DNA from: Clostridia bacterium
Lineage (GTDB): Bacteria > Bacillota > Clostridia > Oscillospirales > Acutalibacteraceae
Length of the DNA: 44,804 nt
Assembly (NCBI GenBank): GCA_017409265.1
Contig: JAFQSY010000066.1
Span: 1-44,804, forward strand
Reading direction: 5' to 3'
Positions 36,571 through 44,804 of this stretch are shown here, piece by piece; position 1 is the first letter of the stretch, and every line of letters begins with the position of its first letter. A model generated the notes under the pieces. The model worked only from the letters and a program-made list of their open reading frames with translations, was not told the origin of the DNA and searched no databases. Position numbers and translations under genes: made by a program.

Positions 36571-36840
36571 ATGTCTGGTTTTATTGAAGACTTTTATTAT
36601 GGCAACATTGAACCGCAGGAATGCTGTTCAGAGTTAAAAAGTAAGTTAAAGAAAAAGTTAAACTCTCTTACAGAAAAAGAAGAATCATTAACCTCAAGAT
36701 TAAGTGGTGAAGAAAAGGATTTATTCGTAGCTTACACAAATACATACAATGATTTTCTGACAGTCAGCATAGCCGATAGCTTTATTTCAGGCTTTCGGCT
36801 TGGGGCGAAGTTTACACTCGACACATTTGTTACTGATTGA
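36571..36840 (+). CDS. DUF6809-like small protein of mobile elements
   Basis: An 89-residue acidic helical protein. Its N-terminus 'MSGFIEDFYYGNIEPQE' resembles small accessory proteins (DUF6809) carried by integrative elements of clostridia; function unknown. The start at 36571 follows ACGGAGG; an earlier in-frame ATG at 36541 lacks a site. It is 14 bases upstream of the tnpV gene, and both are more AT-rich than the surrounding genes, which points to transfer. Family assignment is from memory of the motif. Confidence 0.75.
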   Translation: MSGFIEDFYYGNIEPQECCSELKSKLKKKLNSLTEKEESLTSRLSGEEKDLFVAYTNTYNDFLTVSIADSFISGFRLGAKFTLDTFVTD

Positions 36841-36854
36841 AAGGAAGGTTGGTT

Positions 36855-37232
36855 ATGAATAAATCATCATTTGAACAGAATGGTGGCACATACAGAATGG
36901 TTGGCGATTACAGAATTCCAAACATTACATTACCTGCCGAAGCAAGCAAACCTCTTGGTGTATGGGGACTGAAATACAAAGATTACCTTATGAAACATAA
37001 ACGAGTTCAGTTCAACATTATGCTTATGACAGGCACATTGTTGACTCATCTTGCAGAGATTGATGAACAGGCATCTGCTATGTTCTATCGGCTGGTAGAA
37101 CAGATGAAAGTTAATGAGGGCATAACAGAAAAGTTTAAGGCAGATGACCAAATGGAGTGGGTTGCCCGTATGAATAACATTGAAGCACGGGCAAAAAAAA
37201 TTGTTAATCACGAGCTGATTTTCACAGCATAA
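36855..37232 (+). CDS. tnpV: TnpV-like transposon protein
   Basis: A 125-residue protein matching TnpV of Tn4451-type mobilisable transposons. Visible family marks are 'RMVGDYRIPNITLPAE', 'LGVWGLKYKDYL' and the C-terminal 'EWVARMNNIEARAKKIVNHEL'. TnpV has no proven enzymatic role; the recombinase (TnpX) that moves such elements is not present here. The ATG at 36855 follows AAAGGAAGG. Together with the preceding small gene it forms the coding part of a roughly 1-kb element remnant. Confidence 0.88.
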   Translation: MNKSSFEQNGGTYRMVGDYRIPNITLPAEASKPLGVWGLKYKDYLMKHKRVQFNIMLMTGTLLTHLAEIDEQASAMFYRLVEQMKVNEGITEKFKADDQMEWVARMNNIEARAKKIVNHELIFTA

Positions 37233-37468: not shown

Positions 37469-38743
37469 TTAGCTTGCGGTTTTCATCGGAATACCGTTTT
37501 CATCTGCAGAGAAAACAGAATCTGTTGAGCCGTCATAGACAGAAAGCAGAAGATTTTCGGGGTCTGTGGGCAAGGCAAAAACATTATTGCCTCTGTAAAG
37601 CAAACTTGTGTCCGTTTCGCTTACCTGTTTGATTTCACCGTTTTTGAGGCTGAATACGCACAGAATCATCTGGCGGTCTTCCGTTTCGCTTTCCTCGCTG
37701 AAAACATAGAGGAAGCTGTCACCGTCTGCAGTTTTTACATAATACGGATTCAGGTCATAGGAAAACCAATCAACCTCATAGCTTGAACTTTCGGAAGAAA
37801 TGGCGAGCGTGTAATAATATCTGCCGTCAGGGTCATAGTTACCCGAAACAGAAAGCTCATCTGCACGCTTGTCACCCGTGATGTCGGTAAAGAACGGTGA
37901 CGATAAGGGCAGGTTTACAACATAGGCATCGGGCACGGCAATATATTTTTCTTTGAATAAATCGGGATGCTCCGCAAAGGTCACCGTTGCTGTCTGAATA
38001 CCGAAATTTGTGGGAGCAACAGCACCGGGCTCAAAATAAAAGGTTATGCCGTTATATTCAAGCACCCATGTGATATCTTCTTCCGGTGTGTTTTTGAAAT
38101 AATCGGGAATGGCAGTTTCAACGTCAGATTCTCCTTGCCATATGCGGCTTGTAACTTCTTTTTCAACGATTGCAGGAAGCTTTTCAATATCCGATACAAC
38201 ATCGGAAAGAGTAAGCAATTTTCCGCTTTCTGTGTCGTAATTAAGACAGTTGAAAGATCTTTCCGTTTCCGAATTATAATCTTCAACAATACTGACTGCA
38301 ACACTGTCGGCACGGCGTACCTGAACATCAAGAGTCGAAACATAGGTTGAAAAAACTTCACTGTCATTCAAAAATTCTTCGGTAGCAGTAACGATGAAAT
38401 TATCCTTTTCTTCTTCCATTGTTCTTCTTCTCATAACGGAAGTTTCCGTGAGAGCTTTGGCAAGATGTGGATATTTTTTCTCTATTGATTTATCAAGGGT
38501 AACATCCGTATATTCGCTTCTTACAAGCATTTCGGGATAATCTTCATACCATTCATAATGAGAGATATATTCTTTGTTGAGTGAAAGAACGGTTATTTCT
38601 TCACATGTTTCATTTTTGACAGTCTGTGTTGTTTCATTTGGAGTAACCTCCTGCGGAGAATCTTCTCCGCAAGAGGTAAAAGCAACCATGAAACATAAAA
38701 TCAGTAATATGCAGATAATTCTTTTTAACTTATCCATTAACAT
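37469..38743 (-). CDS. lipoprotein with an RsiV-like (DUF3298-type) domain
   Basis: A 424-residue lipoprotein: lysine/arginine-rich start, hydrophobic core and lipobox 'AFTSC' (about Cys25). The middle (about 95-270) resembles the DUF3298/RsiV extracellular fold: 'RRADSVAVSIVEDY', a 'LNYDTESGKLLTLSDVV' segment and 'YNGITFYFEPGAVAP', which is the typical RsiV-type C-terminal motif. The last 150 residues may form a beta-propeller-like domain (inference). The start at 38743 is an ATG overlapping the upstream stop as TGATG. Last gene of the long minus-strand operon. Confidence 0.82.
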   Translation of the reverse strand: MLMDKLKRIICILLILCFMVAFTSCGEDSPQEVTPNETTQTVKNETCEEITVLSLNKEYISHYEWYEDYPEMLVRSEYTDVTLDKSIEKKYPHLAKALTETSVMRRRTMEEEKDNFIVTATEEFLNDSEVFSTYVSTLDVQVRRADSVAVSIVEDYNSETERSFNCLNYDTESGKLLTLSDVVSDIEKLPAIVEKEVTSRIWQGESDVETAIPDYFKNTPEEDITWVLEYNGITFYFEPGAVAPTNFGIQTATVTFAEHPDLFKEKYIAVPDAYVVNLPLSSPFFTDITGDKRADELSVSGNYDPDGRYYYTLAISSESSSYEVDWFSYDLNPYYVKTADGDSFLYVFSEESETEDRQMILCVFSLKNGEIKQVSETDTSLLYRGNNVFALPTDPENLLLSVYDGSTDSVFSADENGIPMKTAS

Positions 38744-40173
38744 CAAAATCCTTTGACAATGAACGCTACAAGCTCGGTTGCCGAACGGTCTTCGCGTTCA
38801 TCTGTCATAATTGTAATTATGCTTCCGTCATCAAGAACTGCGGAATCGCAGAACCACGGATAATTTGTGTTGAAAAGGTCAGAATCGGATGTCTCGGCAA
38901 TAAAATTACCGTTGTTATCCCAAAGAAGAACATCCCTCATATTTCCGTCAAAAGCAATGTAGCCGTTGGAGGTCTGTGTAACAAATGTCACGCTGCCAAG
39001 GCCTTCGCCTTCAGCGTTGCAGAGAGTTTTCTGAAGAACACCGTCTTTGTTGTAAATGAAAACCTTATGTCCGCTGTCGTCTGCGGCATTTGCACAGACA
39101 TAAATATTGTTTTCATCAACGCACAGATGCATTATTGTATCTGCTTTTTTGAAGGTTACGGGAGTTGAGGTGTATGCATTGCCGCTGAATGTAACAATCT
39201 CACATTCATTTGATGTAAAATAATTAATGCCCCATGTACCTGACGGATGAATCGCAAGAGAATCAATATCCTCATAAGTTGCAATTACATTACCGTCCTT
39301 GATGCAGAGAATGTCGTTCATCGAGCCGCTTACCCAGAGCGTGCCGTCTGCAGTTGCTTCAACTCTGTCATAATCGTCTTCGGGAAGCTCAATTTTTTTA
39401 ACAAAGGCAAGAGTTGTACCGTCATAGTGGCATTCGCTGAGTTCGCCGTCAACAAGAACATATACTCTGTCGCCGATTGCGGCAACGGAATGGTCGAAGG
39501 TTTCAAAGGTTGTAACGGGTGCTTCAAAAGGAACAAATGTTGATGTAACGGTAAACGAACCTGCATTTACGCTTGCAGCGTCTGCCGAGAATCTTTCGCC
39601 TTCCCATTCCCACGGACCGTCTTCATTACCGATATCCTCAAGCTTGAAGGTTATACTGTCAAGAAGAGCCTGAATACGGCTGTCGTTGATGTCGGTTGCG
39701 TCAAACTTGACATAAACCGATGCGTTTGCGTTTTCAACACGGTTGAAATAAACGAGTGTGTCGTCACCGTCGTCATACTTAAGAAGGTCAACGCCGCCGA
39801 CCTTTACAGTTTCATAAGCGTTGTTTACTTTGTATTCATACTGGTTGAAGCCGTAATATACAAGATCCTCACGGAAATCGTAGGGCTCGTCAATCTCAAC
39901 GCTAATTGTTGCCTCGACCAAGTAATATTCGTTGTCCTCGGGGTCAAGAATCTGAAGAACAGCTTTGGAGTATCCTTCTTCATTCTTGAATTCATCTTCA
40001 ATGTTTATCCAGTCGCCGCCAAAATCAATGGTAAAAAATGAGGCTTCAATGGTTGCATCGGAATTGGCAGACGGCTGTTTTGTGTTGTCGGGCTTTTCGG
40101 GAGTATTATCACCGCAAGCCACAAGCGAAAATACCATTAAAAGTGCAAGAAGCAATGCGAATAATTTTTTCAT
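38743..40173 (-). CDS. lipoprotein with a beta-propeller-like C-terminal half
   Basis: A 476-residue exported lipoprotein with lipobox 'SLVAC' (Cys20). Residues 40-185 form a mixed domain of unknown type. From about residue 215 to the end the sequence shows repeats of about 40-45 residues of the kind 'GDRVYVLVDGEL', 'DGTLWVSGS', 'ENNIYVCAN' and 'NGYIAFDGN', typical of NHL/PQQ-like beta-propellers. It should sense or hold something outside the membrane. It follows the 203-residue gene by 21 bases and overlaps the next lipoprotein gene, so it belongs to the same operon. Confidence 0.85.
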   Translation of the reverse strand: MKKLFALLLALLMVFSLVACGDNTPEKPDNTKQPSANSDATIEASFFTIDFGGDWINIEDEFKNEEGYSKAVLQILDPEDNEYYLVEATISVEIDEPYDFREDLVYYGFNQYEYKVNNAYETVKVGGVDLLKYDDGDDTLVYFNRVENANASVYVKFDATDINDSRIQALLDSITFKLEDIGNEDGPWEWEGERFSADAASVNAGSFTVTSTFVPFEAPVTTFETFDHSVAAIGDRVYVLVDGELSECHYDGTTLAFVKKIELPEDDYDRVEATADGTLWVSGSMNDILCIKDGNVIATYEDIDSLAIHPSGTWGINYFTSNECEIVTFSGNAYTSTPVTFKKADTIMHLCVDENNIYVCANAADDSGHKVFIYNKDGVLQKTLCNAEGEGLGSVTFVTQTSNGYIAFDGNMRDVLLWDNNGNFIAETSDSDLFNTNYPWFCDSAVLDDGSIITIMTDEREDRSATELVAFIVKGF

Positions 40174-40194
40174 ATCTACATCTCCTATAATTTA

Positions 40195-40806
40195 TTATGC
40201 CCAAGGGTCTTCCTCTACGGGCACACGGATATCCGAAAGGCATTGGATTTCAACAAGGAACCACTGACCTGTTGAGGGCTTTCTGCGAAGCTTCATCGGT
40301 CTGGGGTTATCTGCACCTCCGCTTTTAACATAGAGCGTTGCCCAATCTGCATTATCGAAGGAATAAGGGTTTTCGATAACGGAAATTTTATAGGGCACAT
40401 CAGGCTTATAGCTGTTCTGCGGAGTTGCGCCTTCAAAATATGAGCGAGCTTTATAGCCCTCAGAGCCGAGATGCTCTTTGATAAACTGCTTTTCAAAGCC
40501 GCTGACCTCTGCAGGACCTTTTAAGAAATTGAGCATTTCAATTGTTGCATCGGGATTTTGCTCGTAATGGCACAAAGCCGCAAGGGTGAGCGCCGTTGTT
40601 TTGAAGGCGGAATCAAGGTTTGCTTCGGGTAATGCCTGAAGCTCGGCAACATTTGTGGGAAGTGAAGCAAAGGTAAAGGTTTCGGTGTGGTTTCTGCCCT
40701 TGCCTACTGACTGCACGGCATTGTTCACCGCCTTGTTAATGCCCTGCGAAACCTCTCTTTTAAGTGCGGATTCTGCCTGTCTTTTGAGAGAATCAAAAAA
40801 TCCCAT
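40195..40806 (-). CDS. soluble protein of unknown function (DUF6935-like)
   Basis: A 203-residue protein starting 'MGFFDSLKRQAESAL' with an amphipathic N-terminal helix, as seen in proteins that sit on membranes or zinc-ribbon/SPFH complexes. The rest ('TALTLAALCHYEQNPD', 'FLKGPAEVSGFEKQFIKEHL', 'MKLRRKPSTGQWFLVE') forms a compact alpha/beta domain that I link to DUF6935-type proteins only from memory. No catalytic motif is seen. GGAGG precedes the ATG at 40806; a reading to 40887 enters the previous gene and is rejected. It lies 13 bases after the TPM gene. Confidence 0.75.
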   Translation of the reverse strand: MGFFDSLKRQAESALKREVSQGINKAVNNAVQSVGKGRNHTETFTFASLPTNVAELQALPEANLDSAFKTTALTLAALCHYEQNPDATIEMLNFLKGPAEVSGFEKQFIKEHLGSEGYKARSYFEGATPQNSYKPDVPYKISVIENPYSFDNADWATLYVKSGGADNPRPMKLRRKPSTGQWFLVEIQCLSDIRVPVEEDPWA

Positions 40807-40819
40807 TGGTATTACCTCC

Positions 40820-41569
40820 TTAATTCTTCTCTGTTTGCTTCGGCTTTTCTCTGCGTTCGACGTTGTTATAAAGGAAATTGTCCGCACTTCCCGTTATAAC
40901 CATACTGCCCGGTCGGGTATATACGGTTGCATTTTCCTGCATTTTAACCGACTTGTTTTTTGAGGCGATGCCGTTAATGATGAGGAAGCCGACAAGCAGA
41001 CCAATCAGAAGCGAAACGGGCAGCCATATAATTGAAACGCCGCCCTTTTCTTCGCTTGCGTCTATTGTATCGGTATCGTTATTCAAAGGCTCTCCGTCAT
41101 AAACATATCCGCCGGAATAGCCGTTTTCAAGGTATTCTTCCGCAAGCTCATAGCAAGCATATATTCCGCCGTAATAGCTGTCGTTGCTGTCATACGCATC
41201 AATCATGCTGTCAACGGCGGCATCGCTGAAAACTTCATCTGCATTACCTGAAATAAAAGAAGAATATGCTTTGTTCCATTCATCGTGAACGATTATTATA
41301 CCGTTTTCGTTATCTGTATAATCTGAATATGTTCCTGATGCAAATTCAGCTGCGGTTACATCTCCCGTACCTTCGGTTATGCAGAAAAGCACGGTAACGC
41401 CATAAGCCGACTCGAGCTTTTCGGCAAACAAATCAAGCTCTTCAATTTCACTTGAAGAGAGCTTATCAGCGTAGTCTATTACATACTGCTGAGTGTAAGC
41501 AGATGCAGAGAATACGAACGAAACACAAATCACAACTACAATAATTATTGCAAAAATCTTTTTAGTCAT
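40820..41569 (-). CDS. TPM-domain membrane protein, YdjH/YgcG-like
   Basis: A 249-residue protein with a signal peptide (about 1-24), an extracellular TPM domain (about 28-150; 'YVIDYADKLSSSEIEELD' is the standard opening, and 'GIIIVHDEWNKAY' and 'YYGGIYACYELAEEYL' follow), one membrane helix (about 183-206) and a short cytoplasmic tail. TPM domains occur in photosystem II repair factors and in envelope proteins next to zinc-ribbon and SPFH genes. GGAGGTGC precedes the ATG. It lies 15 bases after the zinc-ribbon gene. Confidence 0.9.
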   Translation of the reverse strand: MTKKIFAIIIVVVICVSFVFSASAYTQQYVIDYADKLSSSEIEELDLFAEKLESAYGVTVLFCITEGTGDVTAAEFASGTYSDYTDNENGIIIVHDEWNKAYSSFISGNADEVFSDAAVDSMIDAYDSNDSYYGGIYACYELAEEYLENGYSGGYVYDGEPLNNDTDTIDASEEKGGVSIIWLPVSLLIGLLVGFLIINGIASKNKSVKMQENATVYTRPGSMVITGSADNFLYNNVERREKPKQTEKN

Positions 41570-41584
41570 ATTTTCCGCACCTCC

Positions 41585-42655
41585 TTAAAGCAGCTCAATC
41601 AGCCACATAAGGCCGTAGATAACAGCACCTATGCCTGCACCGAGAAGAAGTGACGCTTTTGTGACGGATTTTTTATCCGTGGGAATATTACCGACGAATT
41701 TGCCCGTCTGTCCGTTCATTGCAAAGGTGAAATTCTCACCGTTCCACTTTGTGTTGAGAAGCCATACGGGATAGAGTGCGTATTTATAAATGCCGTTGGC
41801 AACGTTCATATTTGCACCCTGATTTTCAACCTCGTCATAGCCCTTTACGGTTTCTTTGAACGAATCAATAATGCTCTGTCTGATTCTTTCATTCGCTCTC
41901 GGCATACTTTCTTCAGCTGTTACATCGTATTTATCCGCAAGATAGCCTGCGAGATATGCAGTATTGAAATCAACAGCCTGCGTCAAATCAAAGGGTTCAA
42001 CGGATTCCATAAGATCGTCGGGCATTTTTGTTGAGCCGTCAACGGGAATGTTGTCAAATCCTATATTGCCGCTTCTGTAAATGTCGAAATACGAGATTTC
42101 GGTGTATTCGTAATTTTCGTCAGACCATGTCTTTACCTTTTTGGCTTTATAGTTTGCGTTGCCCATTGCATCGCAGGTGAAGAGCCAATGCGGCACATAA
42201 ACGCCCTTTATTTCTTCAAGACGGTTGTCGGTAAGGAATGATTTGGGCACGAATTTTTTTGTTGAGATATGCTTTTTAAGCGCTTCCTTTGCCGCTTTTT
42301 TATCGAGTTTAAAAGGAATAACAAGGTCAGGCTTTAATGCGCCTGAAAACTGTCCCTTCATAACAACCGGATTACCACAATAAGGACAGGTTGTTGCACC
42401 TGTTGTTGTATCGGCAACGATTTCGCCGCCGCAGGAATTGCAGACATAAACGCTCATACCGTCTGTTTCGCCTGCACCCCACTGTGCACCCTGCGAATTC
42501 CAGTTAATCTGCTCAACCTGATTTGATGTATCTTCGGGCATAGCGGTTATATCAAACTCAGTATCACAATAGGGACATTTCAGCCTTTGTGCACCGGTGT
42601 TAAATTCAACCGCACCGCCGCAGCACGGACATTTCTGTTCAAGAATTGTTGACAA
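41585..42655 (-). CDS. zinc-ribbon membrane protein, YdjG-like
   Basis: A 356-residue protein with two N-terminal TFIIB-type zinc ribbons ('CPCCGGAVEF' with 'CPYC', about 9-30; 'CNSCGGEIV' with 'CPYCGNP', about 72-94), a large central domain ('PFKLDKKAAKEALKKH', 'YVPHWLFTCDA', 'YPVWLLNTKW') and one C-terminal membrane helix (about 335-354). It resembles B. subtilis YdjG. The start is a TTG: GGAG lies ten bases upstream, no ATG is available, and a stop blocks longer readings. It begins two bases after the small membrane gene ends. Confidence 0.88.
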   Translation of the reverse strand: MSTILEQKCPCCGGAVEFNTGAQRLKCPYCDTEFDITAMPEDTSNQVEQINWNSQGAQWGAGETDGMSVYVCNSCGGEIVADTTTGATTCPYCGNPVVMKGQFSGALKPDLVIPFKLDKKAAKEALKKHISTKKFVPKSFLTDNRLEEIKGVYVPHWLFTCDAMGNANYKAKKVKTWSDENYEYTEISYFDIYRSGNIGFDNIPVDGSTKMPDDLMESVEPFDLTQAVDFNTAYLAGYLADKYDVTAEESMPRANERIRQSIIDSFKETVKGYDEVENQGANMNVANGIYKYALYPVWLLNTKWNGENFTFAMNGQTGKFVGNIPTDKKSVTKASLLLGAGIGAVIYGLMWLIELL

Positions 42656-42657
42656 GG

Positions 42658-42816
42658 TTAATCATCTCCTTGCTTATTTGTATCTGTCTGAGAATAAACC
42701 ATACCGTTTTTATCCGGTACATAGAACTTGGTTTTGTAATACCACACGCCTGCTGCAATGGCGAAAATCAAAGCAACAACCGAGATTATGATTATCACAG
42801 CCTTCATTTTGTTCAT
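42658..42816 (-). CDS. 52-residue membrane protein
   Basis: A short gene: ATG at 42816 overlaps the preceding stop as TAATG, and its TAA (42658-42660) lies two bases before the TTG of the next gene. The product has one membrane helix (about residues 6-25, 'MKAVIIIISVVALIFAIAA') and a polar tail of about 27 residues ('YYKTKFYVPDKNGMVY'). Its last codons contain the GGAG that serves the next gene. Precise coupling on both sides makes it a real gene. No family is recognised; it is probably a small partner or anchor for the zinc-ribbon/SPFH proteins. Confidence 0.85.
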   Translation of the reverse strand: MNKMKAVIIIISVVALIFAIAAGVWYYKTKFYVPDKNGMVYSQTDTNKQGDD

Positions 42817-43691
42817 TACTGTTTAGGTGTGCCGCAGAATGCACAGAATCTACCGCCATCGTTATTTGCCTGACACGAGGGACATACCCAATTCTGCGAT
42901 ACAGGCTGCTGTACGGGAGGCTGATTATACTGATTCGGCTGAGCATAGGGATTAGGCTGTTGCTGTGCATAAACATTCTGCTGTGCATAAGGATTGGTCT
43001 GACCGTATGCACCTGCAGGAGCATAGCCCTGATTCATAGGCATACCGTTATTCATAGGCTGGCTAAATCCATTATTCATCGGCATACCTGTATTGCCGTT
43101 TTGTGTGAGGTTGTTGATAATCTGCTGTGCCATCTGCTGATAGCGGTTATATTCCATTGTGCCCATACCCTCAACATCGCTGTCGTTGAGTCTTGCGGTA
43201 ATTTCGTCAAAATAGGGATTGTTTATCTTGATGTCAATATAGAAATCGTATGTAAACTTGTATCTGGGAGGATTGTAGCTTACCTCCTCGCCGTCCTTGC
43301 CTTGAGTATAAATTTCTTCACGGTCTTCATCTACCCTGAGGTTACAGCCCGTAACACTTGAAAGCGGAATAACATCGGGGTTTTCATCGCTCCAGCTGCC
43401 GGGATTGCGACGTGAAACAACAAAGCTCTGCTTCATCGGGTCGATGTAGATTTTATCGTCCTCACCGAAGGTGAACATAGCGGAAAAGCCGGCAAGAATC
43501 TGCTTGTTTTGCTCTCTGTAAGCAAGCTGCTGTTTGATTTCTGCAACGGTTGAGCTTCTTCTGTCGCTGAAGAAGGGCGAAAGCTTCTTTGCACAGTCCT
43601 TACACATATTGCCGTCTTCAAGCTTTCTGTTGCCGAGCAGTCCGATTTTGTCGCCGCAGATGTCACAATATTTCTTGTCAAAAAGTCCCAT
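42816..43691 (-). CDS. DUF4428-type zinc-ribbon protein with a Q/N/P-rich linker
   Basis: A 291-residue protein. The N-terminus 'KKYCDICGDKIG' with 'CKDCAKKL' is a DUF4428-like zinc ribbon (about 9-40). The middle (about 60-185) is a beta-rich domain with a PH/GRAM-like look ('KIYIDPMKQSFVV', 'VIPLSSVTGCNLRV'; inference). A low-complexity linker (about 195-265) repeats Met-Asn-Gln/Gly and Tyr-Ala-Gln-Pro units. The C-terminus is a zinc ribbon ('WVCPSCQANNDGGRFCAFCG'). It lies 24 bases after the SPFH gene and overlaps the small membrane gene by one base. Confidence 0.88.
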   Translation of the reverse strand: MGLFDKKYCDICGDKIGLLGNRKLEDGNMCKDCAKKLSPFFSDRRSSTVAEIKQQLAYREQNKQILAGFSAMFTFGEDDKIYIDPMKQSFVVSRRNPGSWSDENPDVIPLSSVTGCNLRVDEDREEIYTQGKDGEEVSYNPPRYKFTYDFYIDIKINNPYFDEITARLNDSDVEGMGTMEYNRYQQMAQQIINNLTQNGNTGMPMNNGFSQPMNNGMPMNQGYAPAGAYGQTNPYAQQNVYAQQQPNPYAQPNQYNQPPVQQPVSQNWVCPSCQANNDGGRFCAFCGTPKQ

Positions 43692-43715
43692 AATTAAAAT
43701 CTCCTTTATAATAAA

Positions 43716-44804
43716 TTATTGAATATCGCTTGAATCAAAAGTGTCGCCGCACTCAGGGCAGAACTTTGGGGGATTGTGGGGATCTTCGGGTTTCCAACCG
43801 CACTTATCGCACTGATAAAGAGGTGCACCCTCGGGCTTCTTCTGTCCGCAATTGGGGCAGAATTTTCCTTTGTTAACCGCACCGCAAGCACAGGTCCAGC
43901 CGTCTGCCTCCGGCTTCTTCGCTCCGCATTCCGTGCAGAATTTTCCGCTTACCGTTGCACCACAGGCACATTTCCAGCCGTCAGCAGAAGTTGTCGGTGC
44001 GGGAGTTGACTGCTGCTGTTGCTGTACGCCTGCCTGATACATCTGTGCTGCATTAAATCCGCCGTTAGCACCCATAGCCATATTAAAGCCCATAAAGCCG
44101 TTCATTGCACCGTTGGGGTTGTTTGCCGCTGCTTCCATTGCGCTTGCCTGTGCATCGGTCATTCTGCCTGCCATCATAAAGGGATTTGAGCCCATTGTTG
44201 CAGCATCTTCCATCTGTGTAATCTTCTTCATATCCTCTTCTGTGAGGGTAATCGGATTAAGCGCAATGGACTCAACGGAAATACCTCTTCGGTCTGTCCA
44301 GTCAACCTTGAGTGCCGCATTCATTGCATCCTTAAGCTCGGCAGTGTGTGCAGGAATCTGTGCAGGGCGAAGCTCCAGCTCTGTCAGCCTTGCAAATGCA
44401 GGCTGAAGCGCAGAGATAAACTCTGTCTTGAGCTGCATATCTATTTCTTCTCTTCTGTATTCGTCGTCAACGTTGCCTGCAATCTTTGTGTAGAAAAGAA
44501 GCGGGTCAGTGATTTTGTATGAATACACACCGTTGCATCTTACCTGAACGGTTCTTGCCATACCTATTCTCTTGTTGACTACCTCGAACATAAACGGGTT
44601 GGGTGTGCCGAACTTGTTGTCGAGAATTTCCTTTGTGTTGAAGTAGTAAACTCTCTGGTCCTTGCCCGTGTCGCCGCCATATGTAAATCTTTTTCCAACC
44701 AATTTGAATGTTTCTTTGATGCTGTCACCAAGCTTGCCCGAGAAAATACTCGGCTCTGTTGATGAATCGTAAGTAAATTCACCGGGCTCTGCACAAACTT
44801 CAAC
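43716..44804 (-). CDS. SPFH-domain protein with three C-terminal zinc ribbons (5' part outside the window), YdjI-like
   Basis: 362 residues are visible and the frame stays open to the window edge, so the start lies beyond 44804. The visible SPFH part includes 'ICEPGEFTY'-type residues ('AEPGEFTYDSSTEPS'), 'KLGDSIKETFKLVGKRF' and 'GISVESIALNPITLTEEDM'. A Met/Asn/Gln-rich linker (ending in five Gln) leads to three zinc ribbons ('CACGATVSGKFCTECG', 'CACGAVNKGKFCPNCG', 'CDKCGW' with 'FCPECG'). It matches the 'virion core protein' SPFH group to which B. subtilis YdjI belongs. First visible gene of the operon. Confidence 0.92.
   Translation of the reverse strand, partial: VEVCAEPGEFTYDSSTEPSIFSGKLGDSIKETFKLVGKRFTYGGDTGKDQRVYYFNTKEILDNKFGTPNPFMFEVVNKRIGMARTVQVRCNGVYSYKITDPLLFYTKIAGNVDDEYRREEIDMQLKTEFISALQPAFARLTELELRPAQIPAHTAELKDAMNAALKVDWTDRRGISVESIALNPITLTEEDMKKITQMEDAATMGSNPFMMAGRMTDAQASAMEAAANNPNGAMNGFMGFNMAMGANGGFNAAQMYQAGVQQQQQSTPAPTTSADGWKCACGATVSGKFCTECGAKKPEADGWTCACGAVNKGKFCPNCGQKKPEGAPLYQCDKCGWKPEDPHNPPKFCPECGDTFDSSDIQ

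Follow-up and report, generated by a model that had tools for sequence, protein, structure and literature searches.

In Bacillus subtilis, the pspA-ydjGHI genes are described as a stress operon, and YdjG together with YdjH was reported to be required for the membrane recruitment of YdjI and PspA (PMC8581546). The genes of this platform are a known partner set, and the architecture given for YdjG is that of the YdjG-like protein discussed below (PMC11237479). Membrane-bound regulators of the LuxR type are a known class in gut bacteria, represented by the catechol dehydroxylase regulators (PMC11585353), and RsiV, which carries a DUF3298 domain, is a lysozyme receptor that binds and inhibits lysozyme (PMC5014341; all sources are cited for the parts of their text that were available). 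The present analysis concerns an eight-gene operon at the end of a 44,804-bp stretch of DNA from a gut Clostridia bacterium of the Acutalibacteraceae (GenBank assembly GCA_017409265.1, contig JAFQSY010000066.1), called the window below, and a 52-bp element lying between this operon and a divergent regulator gene. An inducible envelope module under the control of this membrane-embedded regulator is, by a small measure, the probable explanation of the operon. Comparison of related loci established its gene content and gene order, the regulator, the element and the linkage of the last two.

An operon with a YdjGHI-like core and two lipoproteins

The window is the whole of contig C61 in an assembly of 91 contigs, which is 80% complete with an estimated contamination of 4.4%. 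Two samples were used for comparison. The family sample comprised 150 genomes, with DUF6935 found in 27 and the YdjG-like zinc-ribbon protein (ZR) in 65. The locus set comprised the best 80 of at least 562 DUF6935 relatives ranked by identity, divided into 18 close loci (DUF6935 at least 85% identical) and the other 62, termed distant; its counts lean towards relatives, and many of the 80 entries are closely related to each other. Genes in relative loci and clusters were called with a simple frame caller, and the family content of loci was taken from profile searches.

Eight frames were found on the minus strand at 37469..44804, the last 7.3 kb of the contig, all of them where the original prediction had placed them. 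They are separated by 24, -1, 2, 15, 13, 21 and -4 bases, the last value being -1 if lipoprotein B (lipoB) starts at its second codon. The features are as follows.

44664..44804, no strand: 141-bp overlap identical to the end of contig C65 (exact match)
43716..44804, minus strand: SPFH (Band_7_1) protein with three C-terminal zinc ribbons, last 362 residues (Band_7_1, E 1.5e-16)
42816..43691, minus strand: DUF4428 zinc-ribbon protein, 291 residues (DUF4428, E 5e-18), with a further C-terminal CxxC pair
42658..42816, minus strand: 52-residue protein with one hydrophobic segment (frame; present in 17 of the 18 close loci)
41585..42655, minus strand: YdjG-like protein (ZR), 356 residues, with four CxxC motifs (two ribbons) and a C-terminal hydrophobic segment
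40820..41569, minus strand: TPM-domain membrane protein (YdjH-like), 249 residues (TPM, E 4.9e-10), with two hydrophobic segments
40195..40806, minus strand: DUF6935 (PF22043) protein, 203 residues (E 6.5e-53; 179.4 bits against a cut-off of 27)
38743..40173, minus strand: lipoprotein A (lipoA), 476 residues, no assigned domains (frame, homologue searches)
37469..38746, minus strand: lipoB, 425 residues (DUF3298, E 2.5e-06; 28.8 bits against a cut-off of 24.1)

The operon shares with B. subtilis pspA-ydjGHI an SPFH protein with a C-terminal zinc ribbon, a two-ribbon membrane protein and a TPM membrane protein encoded in one operon (PMC8581546, PMC11237479). The three ribbons of the SPFH protein were counted by eye from its cysteines. 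The YdjG-like protein, with its two ribbons and membrane segment, was recognized by architecture, without direct alignment to B. subtilis YdjG, and the TPM domain is accompanied by transmembrane segments. Three ribbon genes are thus present as predicted; they are not consecutive, as the 52-residue gene stands between the second and the third. In contrast to the B. subtilis operon, the window operon lacks PspA, begins with the SPFH gene and adds the DUF4428, 52-residue and DUF6935 proteins and two lipoproteins; it also lies next to a divergent regulator gene, whereas B. subtilis uses sigma-W.

A search for PspA/IM30 gave no match in the window's own, 80% complete genome, while the same search was positive in 9 of 14 control genomes. 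PspA was not found in the 27 sampled DUF6935 genomes, and none of the 65 ZR genomes had it over the cut-off (one, G136, gave a match below it). Five of the 150 family genomes had PspA over the cut-off, none of them with DUF6935 or ZR.

The NCBIfam search of the operon proteins gave no match over the cut-off, and sequence searches of solved structures with DUF6935 and lipoA returned nothing convincing for either. The family alignment of DUF6935 contains an invariant C-terminal W-A. A beta-propeller had been predicted for lipoA, and this was not borne out: the best propeller match was Reg_prop, with a best E of 0.11 and in only 2 of 15 members.

A divergent regulator and a 52-bp four-half-site element

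The SPFH gene is broken by the end of contig C61, and its first 124 residues (47 of them shared) are encoded on contig C65. The exact 141-base overlap between the two contig ends has the form expected where two contigs adjoin in an assembly graph, and the join may include a branch to another SPFH copy. PspA or YdjF had been expected to the right of position 44804. In their place C65 carries, beyond the SPFH start, the 52-bp element and a divergent gene for a regulator of 323 residues. This protein is 93% identical to the copy in locus L127, which matched HisKA_7TM (E 3.4e-17) and GerE/LuxR (E 2.6e-14), both above the cut-offs, and so combines a transmembrane N-terminus of seven segments (7TM) with a GerE helix-turn-helix (HTH).

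Like the catechol dehydroxylase regulators, the protein is membrane-embedded, has a LuxR HTH and adjoins its presumed target genes (PMC11585353, in the available text). The two differ in the N-terminus (HisKA_7TM here, 10-12 transmembrane segments there), in the target genes and in the conserved four-half-site element of the present locus. A literature search on HisKA_7TM or 7TM combined with LuxR found, by title, no paper on such a regulator. In six regulators (L181, L183, L184, L164, L153 and L187) an in-frame stretch resembling a lipoprotein signal and ending in GC was seen by eye before the 7TM region (6/6), and these could possibly be lipid-anchored 7TM transcription factors. True homologues of the regulator (E 2e-89 or better) were present in 8 of the 62 distant loci; the matches of the regulator profile in 14 of the 62 represent a different LuxR protein (553-576 residues stop to stop), detected through the HTH with E of about 1e-17.

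The element contains GTAGCC at positions 0, +12 and +32 and GGCTAC at +43, and its four half-sites thus make up a 12-bp direct repeat and an inverted pair. Across 15 sequences (13 distinct, related), 31 of the 52 columns were invariant; the third site differs by one letter in L137-L140 and L214. The element was detected in 14 of 18 scanned loci, the misses being L126, L134 and L135, which are cut at or near the SPFH gene, and L142, from which it is absent. A TANAAT sequence follows 21 bases after the element, with constant spacing in all 14, which would in our reading bring the inverted pair onto the -35 region of the likely operon promoter or immediately upstream of it. A promoter scan gave a candidate overlapping this one, in which 9 of 12 positions match; the number of promoters found (3 against 1.4 in shuffles) was unremarkable. 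A cysteine-containing protein of 112-115 residues (e.g., L131:6632-6970), with no Pfam match over the cut-off, is encoded by the gene that directly follows the element in eight of the 18 close loci.

In the window's own genome the element occurs twice, on C65 and C66, each time between a copy of the regulator gene and an SPFH start. A dispersed repeat was considered and rejected, as these two copies, both at an SPFH start, are the only ones. A search of the 150 genomes with one mismatch allowed returned five sites in four genomes, all adjoining the regulator. In L168 the regulator is 50% identical; after it come a GTAGCC dyad and then genes for a protein with a conserved GKW start and for DUF6935.

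A scan for the same layout with any half-site, performed on 24 regulator loci, was positive in 19, with 0 of 200 shuffles reaching the result for each. This test was sharper than a plain hexamer count, for which the shuffle fractions in the 24 loci were 0-0.043 in 12, 0.087 in one and at least 0.27 in 11. Among the 19, the half-site was GTAGCC in 15 and CCACAC in four (L181, L183, L184 and L187), where the inverted pair is one helical turn wider. The recognition helix was FVTESTIKK in all 16 readable regulators at GTAGCC sites (mostly close relatives) and ENTLK[FY]HN in all three readable regulators at CCACAC sites.

A second LuxR protein, of 552 residues with GerE as its main Pfam match and membrane-bound by eye, lies divergent to other DUF6935 operons, accompanied by the gene for a solute-binding lipoprotein (SBP_bac_8), at L147:6281-9346 and in 11 loci like it. 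All 12 of the corresponding intergenic stretches contained a C[TC]ACCC...GGGT[AG]G pair with its offset fixed at 20 bases, and the full layout was found in 5 of 12 (0-2 mismatches), the allowed offsets having been widened by a few bases for this third group.

Conservation and modularity

In the profile searches, 10 of the 18 close loci showed the complete set of eight genes in the same order. The remaining eight comprised four cut by contig ends, three lacking SPFH and one lacking lipoB. DUF6935, lipoA and TPM were each present in all 18, ZR, the 52-residue gene and DUF4428 in 17 each, lipoB in 14, SPFH in 13 and the regulator in 12. ZR is missing from a single locus, L129, which is cut by a contig end; contig ends likewise cut three of the four loci that lack lipoB and two of the five that lack SPFH. 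Two of the 10 loci with the full order, L126 (where SPFH is cut) and L127, have one extra gene separating TPM from DUF6935.

In the family sample, 16 of 29 DUF6935 loci had a ZR gene no more than 5 kb away, where chance would give about 0.25. This rough estimate used 77 of the 81 ZR entries (four weak or partial ones were left out, hence 64 rather than 65 genomes) and 29 of the 30 DUF6935 entries (a fragment, L031 in genome G063, was left out). ZR was present in 25 of the 27 DUF6935 genomes. Full-length lipoA, searched on its own, occurred in 6 of 150 genomes at seven loci, and at every one of these DUF6935 lay no more than 5 kb away. Of the 32 genomes with lipoA matches, the remaining 26 gave weak ones (E 1e-6 or worse) beginning at residue 1 or 2, as would lipoprotein signals. 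The gene order kept in close relatives, together with these two linkages, agrees with the prediction of one unit that joins a ydjGHI-like core to a lipoprotein arm.

That prediction had also made the system depend on DUF6935 and the lipoproteins being neighbours of SPFH in other genomes. Here the result was divided: DUF6935 and lipoB were often away from SPFH, and lipoA was never away from DUF6935 in the family sample. In the distant loci lipoA was found in four and a lipoB-like lipoprotein in 18. The strict DUF4428 profile matched in one of the 62; it misses another DUF4428 family, seen in the 10 loci of cluster c10.

A protein of about 150 residues with a conserved GKW start was encoded upstream of DUF6935 in 42 of the 80 loci, 38 of them among the 62 distant ones (L127:9533-9988, cluster C1). 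It looks calycin-like by eye, and its L127 copy has no Pfam match; it is absent from the window operon, but contig C73 of this genome carries another copy of the operon, and the protein is encoded there. This second copy has 82-91% DNA identity, depending on the stretch, and the extra gene noted for L126 and L127, and could come from a second strain, given the estimated contamination. Two further contigs of the genome carry related genes. On C6 (L064:9687-10619) there is another SPFH copy that runs into the contig end; behind it lies what by eye resembles a glutamine synthetase gene, and not the operon. On C42 (L216:6181-8114) lies a second YdjG-like/TPM pair, with a ZR about 37% identical and no SPFH match adjoining it. 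Just beyond the end of the window operon, at 36837-37232 on the plus strand, a transposon-associated TnpV protein is encoded (Pfam E 6.8e-41).

In Treponema/Spirochaetaceae records (L195, L197-L199, L201 and L202) DUF6935 proteins 57-68% identical to that of the window were found, which suggests transfer of this gene between phyla.

A probable envelope module and its alternatives

If the operon is an inducible envelope module, the 7TM region of the regulator would sense a signal at the membrane, and the LuxR-type HTH would bind the four-half-site operator and turn the operon on. The SPFH protein with its zinc ribbons and the YdjG-like and TPM anchors would form a platform of the YdjGHI type described for B. 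subtilis, here free of PspA, with the DUF4428 protein as an adaptor and the 52-residue protein as a membrane peptide. The cytosolic DUF6935 would be the soluble client of this platform, taking the role held by PspA in B. subtilis, and the two lipoproteins would be placed on, and act at, the outer face. The purpose of the whole would presumably be envelope or cell-surface maintenance. External sensing, which the original prediction had suggested for the lipoproteins, is hypothetical for them; the analysis turned up a membrane-bound regulator instead.

Several observations weigh against this reading. The reversed control pattern gave four chance matches in three other genomes, and therefore the position of the element, and not its number of sites, constitutes the evidence. 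Six of ten regulator genomes, those six with regulators 38-46% identical, had no GTAGCC element pattern, and five of the 24 regulator loci lacked the layout (L138, where the element lies beyond the tested stretch, L151, L153, L164 and L168); the layout rule itself was fitted to the data after the first group had been seen. The CCACAC and CTACCC groups have nearly the same recognition helix (L187 compared with L149), and thus helix and half-site letters do not correspond one to one. L128, L131 and L132 lack SPFH though they are not cut there and possess the regulator, and L142 lacks lipoB, with no regulator or element within 20 kb; in the genome of L142 (G076), regulator, element and SPFH start lie on another contig. 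The absence of PspA is not significant (p 0.37 for the DUF6935 genomes and 0.055 for the ZR genomes), and the amphipathic N-terminus of DUF6935 is weak, with 8% of shuffles scoring equally high. The idea that DUF6935 mimics PspA through such an N-terminus was rejected on this score and because several members do not have that stretch. Finally, most of the 62 distant loci lack the platform (SPFH in nine, ZR in four, TPM in three). This separation of the modules speaks for a modular machine and leaves the fixed system of the original prediction unsupported.

The strongest alternative, unlikely in our estimate though to be taken seriously, is a surface-assembly module in which the platform and DUF6935 assist in the production, folding or display of extracellular proteins (lipoproteins, or giant proteins of the dockerin or S-layer-homology kind) and do not respond to damage. 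Other DUF6935 operons (clusters c13, c15 and c17) encode giant proteins that by eye resemble secreted ones; three S-layer-homology repeats were found in one of these. In G133, which belongs to another genus, the regulator and an element with one extra half-site stand not before SPFH but before two giant proteins with C-terminal dockerins (1221 and 1055 residues; L215:2629-9502), and Band-7 and TPM proteins have been proposed as assembly chaperones (PMC11237479). The window operon, however, has no giant secreted protein, and the pspA-ydjGHI operon of B. subtilis is placed among stress operons in the available text of PMC8581546.

The element could instead be an RNA attenuator and not a DNA operator; its two halves would then form either a stem of 15 pairs or a hairpin resembling a terminator. 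The predicted fold was strong (z -3.8 to -5.1 in all six sequences folded), one terminator-like hairpin followed by ATTTTT was found against 0.2 in shuffles, and 93.8% of cells were paired compared with at most 61.5% when the alignment was slid. Covariation, however, was no better than with shuffled partners (the observed values were reached in 197 to 362 of 500 shuffles), no Rfam family was found at the element, and the layout stays while the half-site letters differ between regulator subfamilies. This makes an attenuator improbable, and the element is read here as the probable operator of the divergent regulator.

A response to lysozyme or muramidase appears more doubtful still. According to this explanation, lipoB would act like RsiV, binding or blocking the lysozyme of the host, and envelope protection in the ruminant gut would be the task of the operon; by record title, 17 of the 18 close loci come from sheep, goat, deer or buffalo gut samples. 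A DUF3298 domain in lipoB is shared with proteins of the RsiV/PdaC type: it was matched in 22 of 25 members of the lipoB family (E up to 0.1), and the lipoB profile matched the solved chains 3cyg and 3s5t, of which the latter bears the name DUF3298. Against this explanation, the domain is also present in functionally different proteins, and no RsiV chain was matched. In contrast to the RsiV/PdaC-type proteins, lipoB has a lipoprotein-like anchor and a long C-terminal extension; its N-terminal signal-like segment is the only hydrophobic one, with no further segment of the RsiV anchor type, and no anti-sigma family was among the Pfam matches of lipoB or its family.

Membership in the phage-shock (PspA/ESCRT-III) response or in an anti-phage system, as the original prediction had considered, is very improbable and phage defence has no good support: SPFH, YdjG-like and TPM proteins are PspA partners in B. 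subtilis (PMC11237479, PMC8581546) and DUF4428 occurs as an N-terminal domain in certain homologues of SNIPE, an anti-phage nuclease (PMC13190303, available text), but PspA is missing as given above, the best PADLOC profile match of the operon proteins was at chance level (E 0.021), phage records gave no match to the operon, and only one relative was found among 33 viral candidate stretches. This relative, the viral-collection contig IMGVR_UViG_2924261002_000001 (L213, its viral status taken from the collection), carries a DUF6935 gene (43% identical) and a gene of the DUF4428 type.

A full-text search of the open literature found no paper on DUF6935, and neither the gene combination, nor a PspA-free setting with DUF6935 and lipoproteins, nor the operator geometry was found in the literature, most subscription papers lying outside the search. 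PF22043 is now given a genomic context. It is conceivable, though we would put it short of an even chance, that the DUF6935 operons (at least 562 relatives) form a large undescribed envelope-response class of gut Clostridia, with variable effectors (the SPFH platform, lipoproteins, dockerin or S-layer giants) placed behind one kind of switch, namely membrane-bound LuxR regulators of at least two types with the same four-half-site geometry and different letters. If the envelope-module reading is true, a YdjGHI-type SPFH/TPM platform can work without PspA and be coupled to surface lipoproteins, and the regulator with its 52-bp element would provide a test handle predicting when the operon is on.

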